This document shows, piece after piece, positions 47,559 through 51,947 of a DNA stretch of 64,000 nucleotides. Position 1 is the stretch's first letter, and every line of letters begins with the position of its first letter. Source of the DNA: Edaphobacter paludis (GTDB taxonomy: Bacteria > Acidobacteriota > Terriglobia > Terriglobales > Acidobacteriaceae); NCBI RefSeq assembly GCF_039993895.1, contig NZ_CP121194.1, forward strand, positions 2,790,001 through 2,854,000, written 5' to 3'. A model generated the notes under the pieces. That model did not search any database, was not told where the DNA came from, and worked only from the letters and a program-made list of their open reading frames with translations. A program made the translations under genes and the position numbers.

Positions 47559-48338
47559 TCAGCGAACCTTGATGGCCTGTCCTATAAGCAGAATCACCGG
47601 TGCCGGTCCGATATCAGCATCTTCAATCGACCTCAGCGTCGCAACATGAACATGTTCTGCAGCGGTAGACGCCTTGGAGACAGCAACGCAAGGCGTATCC
47701 GCGGCGATGCCGGAGCCAATGAGATCATCGGCAAGTGCACGGAAGTTGCGACCCGGCATGTAGATGACGAGCGTAGCATCCGGAGGAAAGGCGCCTGTCC
47801 ACTTCGGAGTCAGCTGAACTTTGCCAGCCGCATGGTGCGCCGTAGCAAGAATCAGCTTGGATGCAGCGCCGCGATCGGTGAGCGGCGTCTGCAAAGCAGC
47901 GGCGACTGCAAAGGCAGTCGTGATGCCGGGAACGATCTCAAAGGGGATGCCCGCGCCGCGAAGAGCCTGAATCTCTTCTCCAGCACGCCCGAAGATAAGC
48001 GGATCGCCTGACTTAAGGCGCAGTACCGACTTCCCGGCCTGTGCCCCCTCGATCATAAGAACGTGGATCTCAGCCTGGGTAATGCGAGGCTGGCCGCAGC
48101 GTTTGCCAACAGGAATAATCTCCGCGCCCTCGTGCGCCAGGGCAAGAATCTCGTCGGAGACAAGATCGTCGGGCAGGATAAGATCGGCCGTTCCCAGCAG
48201 ATGCGCCGTACGCAGGGTTAGATAGTCAGGGTCGCCCGGACCTGCTCCGGCGAGATAGACGTGCCCGCTCTGGGCTGCGAGAGCCGCCTTCTTTCGCGAT
48301 GCCACAGCAAACGTTGAAGCACTCGGCACCTGACTCAC
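47559..48338 (-). CDS. cobA: Uroporphyrinogen-III C-methyltransferase (SUMT)
   Basis: This 259-residue SAM-dependent enzyme makes precorrin-2, the entry to sirohaem. Blocks seen are GHVYLAGAGPGDPDYLTLRT, VLRLKSGDPLIFGRAGEE, VPGITTAFAVAAALQTPLTDRG (split as VPGITTAFAVA and ALQTPLTDRG) and ATLVIYMPGRN. About 25 N-terminal residues precede the catalytic domain. Its start overlaps the stop of the upstream sirC-like gene by four bases (ATGA), and both follow the sirohaem reductase, so the three form one operon. Confidence 0.94.
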   Translation of the reverse strand: MSQVPSASTFAVASRKKAALAAQSGHVYLAGAGPGDPDYLTLRTAHLLGTADLILPDDLVSDEILALAHEGAEIIPVGKRCGQPRITQAEIHVLMIEGAQAGKSVLRLKSGDPLIFGRAGEEIQALRGAGIPFEIVPGITTAFAVAAALQTPLTDRGAASKLILATAHHAAGKVQLTPKWTGAFPPDATLVIYMPGRNFRALADDLIGSGIAADTPCVAVSKASTAAEHVHVATLRSIEDADIGPAPVILLIGQAIKVR

Positions 48339-48973
48339 GCTTTACCTTCCGGCGGATTAGTCTTGGCGTGTTCGCGTGCCAGCAGCCGCGAGGGGCATTG
48401 ATCGTAGCCACAGACTTCGCGTTGAGCGAGTTGGTGAAGCAGCCACTTGCGCTCCTCATTCAGCGGCTCGGCTGCCACAACTTCACGCCGCAAATTGCCG
48501 AGGTCGGCAAGCCACTCTCCTGCATCAAGAGGAAGCTGTGCGTTGATGTCCTTGCGTATCTTCTGGGCAAGGGCGGGACTTGCGCCCGCGGTCGAGATGG
48601 CGATCTGAAGGTCGCCGCGCCGGACGACGGAGGGAAAGTAGAAGTCGCAGAAGGGTGGATCGTCAACGGCGTTGCAGAGAATGCCTTTTTCTGTCGCTTC
48701 GTGAAAGACGGCGCGGTTGACGGCGGGCACGTTTGTGGCAGCCACGACAAGGAAGTTTCCTGTCAGGTCACCTTCAGCATAGGGCCGCTGGTGATATTCG
48801 AGCTCGCCTTCGGCGGCCAGACTCTGGATGCGCTCGCTGGCCTCAGGGGCGATCACCGTGATCCGGGCGTTTGCGGCTTGCAGCGATTCGATCTTGGACT
48901 CGGCCAAATGCCCCGCGCCGATGACGATGCAGGGACGTGCAGCGAGCTTGAGGAAGATGGGGAAGAGGGACAT
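48335..48973 (-). CDS. Precorrin-2 dehydrogenase / sirohydrochlorin ferrochelatase-like protein
   Basis: This 212-residue Met8/SirC-family protein oxidises precorrin-2 with NAD and may insert iron to complete sirohaem. The N-terminal Rossmann segment is CIVIGAGHLAESKIESL (relatives commonly read GGGxVAxRK here). VIAPEASERI, FLVVAATNVPAVN and FCDFYFPSVVRRGDLQIAIST follow, then the chelatase-type helical domain. The Rossmann glycine pattern GxGxxA is retained. The start ATG at 48973 gives normal length. It is 65 bases downstream of the reductase stop and coupled to cobA. Confidence 0.9.
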   Translation of the reverse strand: MSLFPIFLKLAARPCIVIGAGHLAESKIESLQAANARITVIAPEASERIQSLAAEGELEYHQRPYAEGDLTGNFLVVAATNVPAVNRAVFHEATEKGILCNAVDDPPFCDFYFPSVVRRGDLQIAISTAGASPALAQKIRKDINAQLPLDAGEWLADLGNLRREVVAAEPLNEERKWLLHQLAQREVCGYDQCPSRLLAREHAKTNPPEGKA

Positions 48974-49038: not shown

Positions 49039-50760
49039 CTATTCGCCCGGTGCGAGGCGGACAGCGCCGACGGGTGGAGCATCACGCTCGACCGGATCGA
49101 TAGCTACGCCGTTGAGCAGCGTGCGAAGAGTATCGTCACTGTTGCGTGCGAAGTAGGCGCGGAGGTCCTCTTCAGGCTGGCGCTCGGCAAGGTAGGCACG
49201 GAGCAAGCGTTCGATTGCGTCCGGCACGTCCTCGGCGGCGGCGCGATAGCCAAGGGGACGAGACGTGCGAGCATACTTCCCGACTGCTCCGCCCACGCAG
49301 AAATGAAAGGCATCGACTAACTTGCCGTCCTGCTTGATCTTCTTGCCTTCGAGCCCGATATCGGCGATCCAGTGCTGGCCGCAGCTATTGGTGCAGCCAG
49401 TGACGTGAAGCTTGATCTGCTGGTCAAAGCCCGGCAGACGGTCTTCCATCTCGCTGACCAACCACTTTGCAAAACCTTTGGTTTCGGTGATAGCCAGCTT
49501 GCAAAACTCGGTGCCGGTGCAGGCGATGGCGCCGCGCCAGAAGGCCGAAACGTCGACCTGAAAGCCGAGTGTGTTCAGCTCGATCACGAGAGCGGCGGTC
49601 ATCTCGTTGGGCACGTTCACGATGATGATGTTCTGCATGATGGTGGCGCGAAGTTGACCGTTGCCGTATTTCTCGGCAAGATCGGCGAGCTTTTGCAGTT
49701 GATCGCCGGAGACCCGTCCGCGAAGCACGCTGGCGCCGACCGAGGAGAGGCCGGGCTGGCGCTGCGGGGTAATGCCGATGTGATCGCGATAGATGTCGTC
49801 GGCAATATTCTCATCCTCGGCGGGAGAAGGGATCAGCTTGTAGCCGAGCTTGGCTTCGAGCACTTCGAGATAGGATTCCGGGGTCCAGCCGAAGCGCATG
49901 AAGAGATATTTGGAGCGAGCCTTCATGCGGTTTTCGCGAAGAACGTCTGCATCACGGAAGATCTCGGCTGCGGCCATCACAGCGGCGAAGGCCTGGTCCT
50001 GACGGATAAAGGCAGGAATGCGTGCGGCGATGTGGGGTTCGGTGGAGAGACCGCCGCCGACGCGCAGGGTATAGCCGACCTCTTCCTTGCCGTCGACCGT
50101 GTGCTTGATGGCGGTAAGGGCGACGTCATTAATCTCGGGATAATTGCACCAGAGCGGGCAGCCGGAGATGGAGATTTTGAACTTGCGGGGCAGATTGTAG
50201 AAGGCGGTGTTGGCGGTGAGCGCTCTAGCTACCTGGACGGCAAGGGGCGAGGCGTCGATGAGTTCGTCGTGATTGATTCCGGCGAGCGGGCAGCCGGTGA
50301 CGTTGCGAACGACGTCGCCGCAGGCGCCCTTAGGGGAAAGACCGATCTCGGTAAGTGTGTCGACGACATCGACGAGGTCGCCGATGGTAAGCCAGTGAAG
50401 CTGAATGTTCTGGCGGGTAGTAATGTCGGCCAGGTTGCGCGCGTACTTTTTGGTGATGCCGCCGATGACGCGGAGCTGATGGCTCGTAAGCAGCCCGTTG
50501 GGCAGACCGATCCGCAGCATGAAGAACTCAGTCGCTTTGCCCTCGCCATTCTTGCCGCCCGCGAGGCCCAGCCCGTCGCCCTGCGAGTAGACCCCCCACC
50601 AGCGAAAGTAAAGAGCCCAGTCTTCTGGGACGGAGTCACGACCATCCCGGGCAAATTGACGGATCTCGTCAAAAGCTTCCCAGGGATTCTTGGCTAGCTT
50701 GAGGCGCTCGGTCTTCTGGGCTTTGGTTTCTTTGATCGCGGGAGCGGTAGGGGTTGTCAT
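49039..50760 (-). CDS. Sirohaem-dependent nitrite/sulfite reductase (ferredoxin type)
   Basis: This 573-residue reductase carries out a six-electron reduction of sulfite to sulfide or nitrite to ammonia. The two-fold repeat core is visible (ADITTRQNIQLHWLTI and LRATIMQNIIIVNVP). The [4Fe-4S]-sirohaem ligands are CTGTEFCKLA and CTNSCGQ. The start is the ATG at 50760, with AAAGGA six bases upstream. The leader region ahead of it carries a cysteine-rich ORF and terminator, and the two sirohaem genes follow. On that context I favour sulfite (cysteine synthesis) over nitrite; the protein sequence alone does not decide it. Confidence 0.92.
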   Translation of the reverse strand: MTTPTAPAIKETKAQKTERLKLAKNPWEAFDEIRQFARDGRDSVPEDWALYFRWWGVYSQGDGLGLAGGKNGEGKATEFFMLRIGLPNGLLTSHQLRVIGGITKKYARNLADITTRQNIQLHWLTIGDLVDVVDTLTEIGLSPKGACGDVVRNVTGCPLAGINHDELIDASPLAVQVARALTANTAFYNLPRKFKISISGCPLWCNYPEINDVALTAIKHTVDGKEEVGYTLRVGGGLSTEPHIAARIPAFIRQDQAFAAVMAAAEIFRDADVLRENRMKARSKYLFMRFGWTPESYLEVLEAKLGYKLIPSPAEDENIADDIYRDHIGITPQRQPGLSSVGASVLRGRVSGDQLQKLADLAEKYGNGQLRATIMQNIIIVNVPNEMTAALVIELNTLGFQVDVSAFWRGAIACTGTEFCKLAITETKGFAKWLVSEMEDRLPGFDQQIKLHVTGCTNSCGQHWIADIGLEGKKIKQDGKLVDAFHFCVGGAVGKYARTSRPLGYRAAAEDVPDAIERLLRAYLAERQPEEDLRAYFARNSDDTLRTLLNGVAIDPVERDAPPVGAVRLAPGE

Positions 50761-50784
50761 TAGAAATCCTTTAGAGAGCTAAAT

Positions 50785-50810
50785 AAGAAAAGCCCACTGG
50801 GTTCGTGGGC
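50785..50810 (-). terminator. Intrinsic terminator/attenuator ahead of the sirohaem reductase gene
   Basis: On the minus strand GCCCAC (50810-50805), loop gaaccca, GTGGGC (50797-50792) and then TTTTCTT (50791-50785) make a six-pair GC stem with a U-tract. It lies between the cysteine-rich leader ORF and the reductase start, in the transcribed leader, about 25 bases before the ATG. Its position fits conditional termination rather than a gene end. Confidence 0.75.
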
Positions 50811-50835
50811 GCTTATGACTTTGCTAATGTGTTCG

Positions 50836-50852
50836 GACTGATTCGATCAGTC
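50836..50852 (-). promoter_or_regulatory. Short hairpin at the end of the cysteine-rich leader ORF
   Basis: GACTGAT-cga-ATCAGTC is a perfect seven-pair stem that starts inside the leader ORF stop codon. Its position between ORF and terminator fits a pause hairpin. No alternative antiterminator pairing of good length was found by eye. Confidence 0.5.
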
Positions 50853-50929
50853 TACGAAGCGGGGCAAAGGCGAAGGCGCACTGAGTCGCAACAACACATG
50901 CAACAACGGGATGCGCAAAAGATCGCCAT
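50852..50929 (-). CDS. Cysteine-rich 25-residue leader peptide
   Basis: The frame reads MAIFCASRCCMCCCDSVRLR and ends LCPAS before TAG. It has seven Cys codons (positions 5, 9, 10, 12, 13, 14 and 22) in 25, versus a rare residue elsewhere. The ATG lies only 8 bases after the -10 box and has no ribosome site, so the message is probably near-leaderless. Mycobacteria use leaderless poly-Cys upstream ORFs as cysteine-responsive attenuators of sulfur genes. The same logic is inferred here: when Cys-tRNA is scarce, ribosomes stall and the reductase operon is read. The peptide itself is unlikely to have a function. Confidence 0.75.
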   Translation of the reverse strand: MAIFCASRCCMCCCDSVRLRLCPAS

Positions 50930-50936
50930 TGATATT

Positions 50937-50965
50937 AGGATAATTCGTGCCCTGTCTTGCGTCAA
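50937..50965 (-). promoter_or_regulatory. Sigma-70 promoter of the leader/sirohaem reductase operon
   Basis: TTGACG (50965-50960) and TATCCT (50942-50937), 17 bases apart, match sigma-70 at five and four of six positions. The predicted start is about 50930-50929, at or just before the leader ATG. Confidence 0.65.
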
Positions 50966-51053
50966 GAAGCCCTTGGCGAAGAAACAGTGTTGTGTTCGAT
51001 TACCCGCATAGACCTTTCAGTGTGATCATACGGACGAATTGTGAGGAGGAAAA

Positions 51054-51947
51054 ATGTTGAGACTGAGCTTTCTCGCCCTGACCGGGACAGGATTGGGAGC
51101 GGCCCCCTTTGTTCCGATCATCCATAAACCATTTCCCTTTTTCCCGGAGTCGATCATGCATGATGCTAACTCAGGTTTCGCCCCGGTCAATGGATTGAAC
51201 CTTTATTACGAGATACATGGTGAGGGTCAACCCCTCATCCTGTTGCATGGTGGCGTCTCAGCCAGTGAGGCATTCGGTCCGAATCTGAAGGAGTTGGCAA
51301 AGTCCAGAAAGGTCATTGCTGTTCACCTGCAGGGTCACGGACATACGAAGGACATCTATCGTCCGCTCCGATTCGAATCTATGGCCGATGACGTTGCCGC
51401 ACTGATAGCCTTTCTCAAGATCGACAAGGCGGATGTGCTTGGTTATTCGCTGGGCGGCGGTGTTGCGCTGCAAACAGCGATTAGGCATCCTGCAGCCGTC
51501 AATCGGCTGATCATTATCTCGGCGGCTATGCAACAGGACGGATGGTTTCCGGAGGTAATTACAGCGTTCAATCAGATGCCCGCGCACGCATCTCAAATTG
51601 CCCAAAATATAAAAGGCTCGCCACTTGGCCAGCTTTATCCGGAAGTCAACTGGGAAGTATTACTCAGCAAGATCGCAGAGATGGAGTCGCGCGACTTTGA
51701 CTGGACAGAGCAGGTGAAAAAAATACAGTCTCCCACGATGCTTGTGTTTGCTGACGCCGATGCGATTCGGCCTGAACACATGATCGCGTTTTACAAAGCG
51801 CTAGGCGGAGGTCAACGCGACGCAGGTCTGGACGGTTCTCTTCGTTCAACGGCACGGCTTGGTATTGTTCCCGGGGCAACTCACTACAACATTTTGGCGA
51901 CGACAGCGGTCACAAATCTCGTGACGCCCTTTCTCGCTCAAGCCTAG
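51054..51947 (+). CDS. Alpha/beta hydrolase
   Basis: This 297-residue alpha/beta-hydrolase has an N-terminal hydrophobic stretch that may be a signal sequence. The catalytic serine lies in VLGYSLGGGVALQ, the acid in VFADADAIRP and the histidine in PGATHYNIL. LILLHGGVS is the oxyanion loop. GAGGAGG four bases before the ATG at 51054 is one of the best ribosome sites in the window. The substrate is unknown. It is divergent from the leader ORF of the sirohaem operon. Its stop and that of the anti-sigma gene share a CTAG. Confidence 0.88.
   Translation: MLRLSFLALTGTGLGAAPFVPIIHKPFPFFPESIMHDANSGFAPVNGLNLYYEIHGEGQPLILLHGGVSASEAFGPNLKELAKSRKVIAVHLQGHGHTKDIYRPLRFESMADDVAALIAFLKIDKADVLGYSLGGGVALQTAIRHPAAVNRLIIISAAMQQDGWFPEVITAFNQMPAHASQIAQNIKGSPLGQLYPEVNWEVLLSKIAEMESRDFDWTEQVKKIQSPTMLVFADADAIRPEHMIAFYKALGGGQRDAGLDGSLRSTARLGIVPGATHYNILATTAVTNLVTPFLAQA

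Follow-up and report, generated by a model that had tools for sequence, protein, structure and literature searches.

A putative leaderless cysteine leader peptide and predicted attenuator upstream of a sirohaem reductase operon in Edaphobacter paludis

Why should a predicted sulfite reductase operon of an acidobacterium be preceded by a very short ORF crowded with Cys codons, and could the RNA between promoter and operon set its expression by the supply of cysteine? The question is raised by a stretch of 64,000 nucleotides of the Edaphobacter paludis genome (NZ_CP121194.1, positions 2,790,001 to 2,854,000), here called the window; positions are counted from its first letter, and the features described below lie on its minus strand. 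An earlier note on this DNA had proposed a cysteine-sensing attenuator with a start near the transcription start. Its interpretation as a whole is supported by the comparisons reported here, within what sequence alone can support.

The leader ORF and its operon

The leader promoter (50937 to 50965) is sigma-70-like and consists of TTGACG at 50965-50960, a 17-nt spacer and TATCCT at 50942-50937. After a further 7 nt, an ATG at 50929 opens the Cys-rich leader ORF (50852 to 50929), which encodes the peptide MAIFCASRCCMCCCDSVRLRLCPAS and is predicted to be leaderless, its ATG lying 0-1 nt from the expected transcription start. Seven of its 25 codons are Cys codons, and five of these fall within codons 9-14 (50888 to 50905), which read Cys-Cys-Met-Cys-Cys-Cys and are taken as control codons from the translation and from the UGU bias of genus leaders given below. 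A small hairpin, GACTGAT-CGA-ATCAGTC (50852-50836), read in the sequence and in the predicted fold, is perfect over 7 bp and overlaps the stop codon. Promoter, ATG, ORF, stop-codon hairpin and a terminator upstream of the reductase and sirohaem genes had all been described in the earlier note, and each was found where it had been placed. The predicted fold of the window leader RNA was better than those of 200/200 shuffles (z −3.15). The leader peptide had no Pfam or NCBIfam match, and the sole match of Rfam covariance models to window positions 50300-51300 was at chance level (E 3.5), on the opposite strand and outside the leader.

The first gene downstream encodes a NirA/SirA-type sirohaem reductase (49039 to 50760; profile matches and an LPRKFK motif), with a Shine-Dalgarno-like AAAGGA at 50767 to 50772, outside the terminator. 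The two sirohaem genes encode a precorrin-2 dehydrogenase, the N-terminal part of CysG (48335 to 48973; TIGR01470 over its cut-off, PF13241 and PF14824), and a uroporphyrinogen-III C-methyltransferase (47559 to 48338; TIGR01469 over its cut-off, PF00590). The best solved relative of the reductase is the mycobacterial structure 1zj8, deposited as a probable ferredoxin-dependent nitrite reductase NirA, an enzyme that we take to reduce sulfite. We also assume that the Lys of the LPRK[F/Y]K motif marks sulfite reductases. As the LPRKFK of the window enzyme resembles the mycobacterial LPRKYK, unlike the LPRKWN of two plant nitrite reductases, the enzyme is predicted to be a sulfite reductase. On this basis, the operon would be expected to supply sulfide for cysteine.

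We searched 62 genomes of the genus, found the reductase in 57 and read all 57 upstream regions. A tandem-Cys leader ORF with its start codon just past a -10 hexamer was present in 55/57 of these loci. When a strict pattern was applied (TTGAC, N17-19, TANNNT, N5-9, A/G-TG and an ORF of 8-60 aa with tandem Cys), it was matched in 53/57 upstream regions, in 0/57 reverse complements and in none of 200 shuffled sets, the shuffles being approximately dinucleotide-preserving. TTGAC was present in 54 of the 55 leaders, the spacer was 17 nt in 53 and 18 nt in 2, and the start codon was ATG in 53 and GTG in 2. The peptides are 18-34 aa long with 2-9 Cys, and most other residues vary. No leader was found by the rule in two of the 57 loci, G058 and G060. 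By eye, G060 (L215) still has a promoter with TTGACG, followed by a start codon and a hairpin, but its short ORF holds one Cys only; this is perhaps a decayed leader.

Transcription in bacteria normally begins about 7 nt past the -10 hexamer. The distance from hexamer to start codon was 6 nt in 20 of the 55 genus leaders, 7 nt in 28 and another value in 7; because it is 6-7 nt in 48/55, the start of the leader would lie at the transcription start or adjoin it. From this spacing we infer a transcript that is leaderless or has a one-base leader, no 5' end having been mapped. In an earlier survey, each of the three Acidobacteria genomes covered was predicted to contain leaderless genes (PMC3160421).

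The reading frame of the Cys codons was assessed from start codons picked blind to Cys, which were found in 53/57 loci (4 had no start by that rule, and 1 had no TGYTGY). The first TGYTGY shared the frame of the leaderless start in 51/52 loci and was out of frame in one, whereas one third would be expected in frame by chance. Cys accounts for 320/1563 residues of the genus leader peptides, and 194 of its 320 codons are UGU, compared with 22/278 in 30 reductase genes (p 8e-45); in eleven window ORFs, 6/30 Cys codons are UGU. The rarer, wobble-read UGU is, we infer, the codon one would pick for a sensor, and the bias makes a directly testable claim on the choice of control codons. Both the start near the expected transcription start and the conserved Cys codons, which the earlier note had proposed, hold up by sequence comparison across the genus.

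Terminator and alternative folds

The intrinsic terminator (GCCCAC-N7-GUGGGC followed by UUUUCUUAUU) was read from the sequence at 50782 to 50810. Its stem, GCCCACGAACCCAGTGGGC at 50810-50792, begins 41 bases past the leader stop codon and is followed by TTTTCTTATT. A hairpin with a T-run has its place after 54/55 genus leaders, G051 being the miss. When a T-run and −9 kcal/mol or better were required, 53/54 genus leaders had such a hairpin, against 12/270 shuffled intervals, and the terminator pairs are kept in 96.0% of alignment cells. In the wider set of reductase relatives described below, such a hairpin follows 69/69 of the leaders kept, three automatic choices having been replaced by hand. 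A conserved terminator, as the earlier note expected, is therefore present far above the level of shuffles. The same note had seen no strong antiterminator pairing, and this point has to be revised: the 3' half of the ORF is predicted to pair with the linker plus the terminator 5' arm, although equilibrium folding favours the terminator.

In this proposed antiterminator, the 5' strand is region 2, AGUGCGCCUUCGCCUUUGCC (50863 to 50882), inside the ORF, and the 3' strand is region 3, AGCAAAGUCAUAAGCGCCCA (50806 to 50825), which overlaps the terminator 5' arm. The window duplex of the two was calculated at −13.7 kcal/mol. Over 53 genus loci, the mean for own region 2:3 pairs was −18.43, compared with −16.68 (sd 0.34) for permuted pairs, with 0/5000 permutations as good, and with an average of −13.90 for shuffled leaders. 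The permutation counts are optimistic because the loci are related. The linker alone, without the terminator arm, gave a smaller effect (own −13.79, permuted −12.90, 32/5000 as good). A duplex of region 2 with the terminator arm alone was rejected, since at −7.0 kcal/mol in the window it was no better than swaps or shuffles; in the wider set it reached a shuffle p of ≤0.05 in 24/69, being significant in some clades only. Because this arm-only duplex is weak in the window, we put in its place the longer pairing of region 2 with linker plus arm.

Compensating pairs could be read by eye in single loci, such as TTTTGTAG with CTACAAAG in G057 and TGTCG with CGACA in G044. In the region 2:3 columns of alignment A1, 86.3% of cells were paired, and covariation was 0.104 compared with 0.081 when shuffled (0/500). 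The column covariation is modest, with 8 cells changed on both sides while slid structures give 5-13; it is blurred by the alignment register and lends weak support only.

Region 1, GCGCAU (50911 to 50916), pairs in the predicted ribosome-free leader fold with GUGCGC at 50881-50876. Across the genus, the region 1:2 pairing had an own mean of −24.6 against −19.4 for shuffled leaders and beat 50/50 shuffles. The predicted layout of the leader is thus the classical 1:2, 2:3, 3:4 arrangement. When the terminator 3' arm was treated as not yet made, the ORF paired with the linker or the arm with P >0.5 in 52/54 leaders. At equilibrium with a ribosome on the Cys codons, the terminator still formed with P >0.5 in 54/54 (0.99 in the window), and in the stalled state of the wider set its P fell below 0.6 in only 12/69; of these 12, L058 lacks a good terminator whatever the state. 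As the terminator wins at equilibrium, the antiterminator would have to win kinetically. The stop-codon hairpin was only slightly better across the genus than in shuffles (−5.03 compared with −4.48, sd 0.21), and for this reason we do not count it as part of the mechanism.

Predicted attenuation and rival readings

We consider it probable that the sulfite reductase-sirohaem operon is controlled by ribosome-mediated attenuation of transcription, in which translation of a leaderless leader peptide serves to sense charged tRNA-Cys. RNA polymerase would start at or adjoining the leader ATG, and a ribosome would need no Shine-Dalgarno site to load on the AUG at the 5' end. With ample cysteine, the ribosome would pass the tandem Cys codons to the stop codon and cover region 2 in the last part of the ORF, so that the terminator could fold and transcription would end about 20-30 bases before the reductase gene. 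With charged tRNA-Cys scarce, the ribosome would stall at codons 9-14 and open the region 1:2 helix, leaving region 2 free to pair with the emerging linker and terminator 5' arm, so that the polymerase may read through. Of the elements of this model, promoter spacing, ORF, Cys codons, terminator and the complementarity of regions 1:2, 2:3 and 3:4 come from comparing sequences; transcription start, leaderless translation, stalling, the kinetic order of folding and the response to cysteine are inferred, with no RNA, ribosome or expression data.

The leader might sense cysteine and yet be read out by translation or by Rho, as discussed for mycobacteria, with the hairpin secondary. The Cys leaders of mycobacteria are described as having no conserved terminators (PMC1262725) and have been termed translation attenuation (PMC13236596), as far as the accessible text of both sources goes, and the Cys leaders of cysD-like genes reported below mostly have no clear terminator either. 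We nevertheless hold such a readout to be unlikely at the reductase, where a hairpin with a T-run follows 54/55 leaders, far above shuffles. A single longer predicted fold has the reductase AAAGGA weakly paired locally and the reductase AUGAC paired with a linker GUCAU; the helix over AAAGGA is A-U-rich, of 5 pairs plus 3, and partly missing from the centroid. In view of this weak pairing over AAAGGA and the reductase start codon, a translational component is not excluded.

That the ORF encodes a functional Cys-rich micro-protein, binding metal, haem or thiols, with the terminator fixing its ratio to the operon, would agree with the high Cys content kept across the genus (320/1563 residues); we give this idea very little credence, because length (18-34 aa), Cys number (2-9) and most other residues vary, the window leader lacks a Pfam or NCBIfam match, and a micro-protein would not predict the UGU bias, the complementarity to linker and terminator, or the leaders ahead of a YeiH-type gene in L033 and L066. 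Just as improbable in our estimate is a leader transcript that is chiefly a terminated small RNA, or a source of a peptide, acting in trans like the trp leader of Sinorhizobium meliloti, beside or instead of attenuation in cis: the leader sequence varies widely, and where found the leader precedes sulfur genes and moves to the start of the operon. The preferred reading remains ribosome-mediated attenuation of transcription.

Leaderless poly-Cys short ORFs have been described in mycobacteria (Canestrari et al. 2020, as cited in PMC4633059, PMC9094748, PMC13236596 and PMC9031893). The window leader resembles them in its predicted leaderless start, its Cys-codon runs, its place ahead of sulfur genes and its interpretation as an attenuator that responds to cysteine. 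These mycobacterial ORFs are the nearest known system in signal and in start, although they belong to Actinobacteria and the window system to Acidobacteriota. Candidate Cys leader peptides have also been listed for the cys operons of Mycobacterium and Propionibacterium and for Bifidobacterium cbs (PMC1262725), likewise short ORFs with Cys-codon runs upstream of genes of cysteine metabolism. In the portion of that source at hand, these actinobacterial candidates, the Mycobacterium cys leaders among them, have no conserved terminator hairpins and carry their Cys runs near the stop codon, whereas the window has a terminator with complementary regions 1-4 and a Cys run in mid-ORF (codons 9-14 of 25).

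Tandem Cys codons together with an intrinsic terminator are shared with uORFC-8-2, a short ORF before cysS of Rhodobacterales for which ribosome-mediated attenuation has been proposed (PMC8632094); we compared the two by description, not by sequence. It differs in its phylum and in its target, a cysteinyl-tRNA synthetase gene instead of a sirohaem reductase, and the available part of the paper makes no mention of a leaderless start. The attenuator RNA of S. meliloti trp begins with the leader start codon (PMC7298713, accessible in part). Like trpL of that species, the window has a leader ORF at the predicted 5' end of the RNA, tandem control codons, a proposed antiterminator and a terminator; unlike trpL, it concerns cysteine rather than tryptophan and sulfur genes rather than trpE(G). 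In its predicted working, the window system resembles classical attenuators as well as the poly-Cys leaders of mycobacteria, from which its terminator sets it apart; its function is unproven, and no cysteine response has been measured. It joins two themes known separately, the leaderless poly-Cys leaders of mycobacteria and the terminator-type attenuation with a leaderless leader of S. meliloti trpL. The Cys leader comes with a signal, a target and a testable mechanism, genus-wide and beyond. If leaderless ribosomes are timed closely enough to the polymerase for a classical attenuator, transcripts that begin with their start codon would serve regulation and not merely reflect an oddity of initiation. 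No description of this element in Acidobacteria was found in the open-licence literature, which was available mostly as titles and the beginnings of abstracts.

Cys leaders at other loci and before other genes

The wider set comprised the best 80 of at least 589 reductase relatives from a scan of genome contigs. It has eleven loci in common with the 57-genome set, so that the counts are not additive. When the window was aligned with ten close loci, CTTGACG was invariant (11/11), and the start-codon spacing and the Cys codons were kept. The first search for Cys-rich ORFs took the two most Cys-rich ORFs of each of the 80 loci, chance ORFs included. By a strict rule, a leader was present in 42/80 loci, among them at least one (L077) whose match is a longer unrelated ORF and was rejected. 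By a relaxed rule, it was present in 71/79 loci including the window, L038 and L080 having been excluded because their upstream sequence was too short; the eight misses were L018, L033, L065, L068, L071, L075, L077 and L078. L015 and L066 were removed from the 71 before later counts, leaving 69, in which the starts of L059, L069 and L074 are uncertain. No leader of this kind was found by three rules in L068, L071, L077 and L078, which are labelled Methylomirabilota or Rokubacteria; the sole hit of these rules there was the unrelated ORF of L077. L015 has a PF01507 gene directly upstream of the reductase and no leader in the 3 kb searched.

In L033 and L066, a PF03601 (YeiH-type) gene stands directly before the reductase, with the Cys leader ahead of both, and gene and reductase form one apparent operon (L033:1611-3001, L066:1237-3001). 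There are hints here that the YeiH-type transporter serves the handling of sulfite or sulfate. By eye, a GGACC-N5-GGTC palindrome lies at the leader promoter in L021, L024, L026, L032 and L035, and imperfect palindromes of this form are seen in L042, L048 and L050, further upstream in the last two. A palindrome at the promoter suggests a repressor on top of attenuation.

The E. paludis genome itself has further leaders. A small ORF and a PF03601 transporter, which we presume to be the one named YeiH, follow a leaderless Cys leader, MGLMHIAACTCCLCCMGNGCCCVGSSPT, whose terminator is strong; the Pfam match was obtained in this genome only, the transporter being recognised by eye elsewhere. With one exact promoter pattern only, the YeiH leader was found in at least 10 of the 62 genus genomes, and over ten loci its antiterminator averaged −21.4, compared with −14.0 for shuffles (0/200). 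Another leaderless Cys leader, MVSPIICACCCCRMVTARCPR, precedes a PF01507 gene (L222; C1 upstream of 3349351, minus strand), which we call cysD-like because by eye a CysN-like ORF follows it. This gene is present in 54/62 genus genomes. Of 30 such loci read, 29 have a Cys leader and 24 a -10 hexamer 5-9 nt before the start; the best ORF was taken at each locus, without a shuffled control for ORFs or terminators. Of the 29 leaders, 8, that of E. paludis included, have a hairpin at −9 kcal/mol or better followed by a T-rich tail, and only L250-L253 look like typical terminators, GC-rich with a T-run.

The design is not limited to cysteine, because a leaderless His leader, MSVRLQHHGHHHHHAQSVLAAVSGVAK, precedes hisI (PF01502) and hisG (PF01634) from C1:3274782 onwards (L126:1501-1640), followed by a GC-rich hairpin and a T-run as judged by eye. 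Acidobacteriota of this group may govern their sulfur genes through a regulon that acts in cis and has no single protein in common. In it, leaderless Cys leaders, tuned by the UGU codon that is rare in the reductase genes, would stand before genes of sulfate activation (cysD-like), of sulfite reduction (sir) and of a YeiH-type transporter, and the readout would differ by operon: an intrinsic terminator at sir and YeiH, and perhaps another readout at most cysD-like loci. As the same design serves histidine, it may be the phylum's general style of attenuation. We are evenly divided on this proposal.

The genome contains 45 sites encoding CC-x-CC. Thirty of them were scanned, and six gave short ORFs by the rule; the window leader and the YeiH leader are among the sites outside these 30. 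The short ORFs of L081 and L082 were rejected as antisense to a long ORF, and the other ORFs passing the rule at the scanned sites were rejected for want of a -10 hexamer at the right place.

Two further elements were noted. In L188, an ORF that by eye resembles an outer-membrane receptor is preceded, around position 1501 of the minus strand, by a leaderless Cys leader, MRKNFTPNCTCCVCCRDAAFAWV, and its terminator-like hairpin. In G000 and G024 (L123 from 1501, and L220 on the minus strand), an element of about 130 nt that has a promoter of its own is conserved, and no Rfam match was found in the L124 stretch that covers it. Right past its -10 hexamer lies a mini-ORF, M/V-ARLPSG, whose frame continues in L220, and by eye it has two hairpins plus a terminator; possibly this element is a small RNA.
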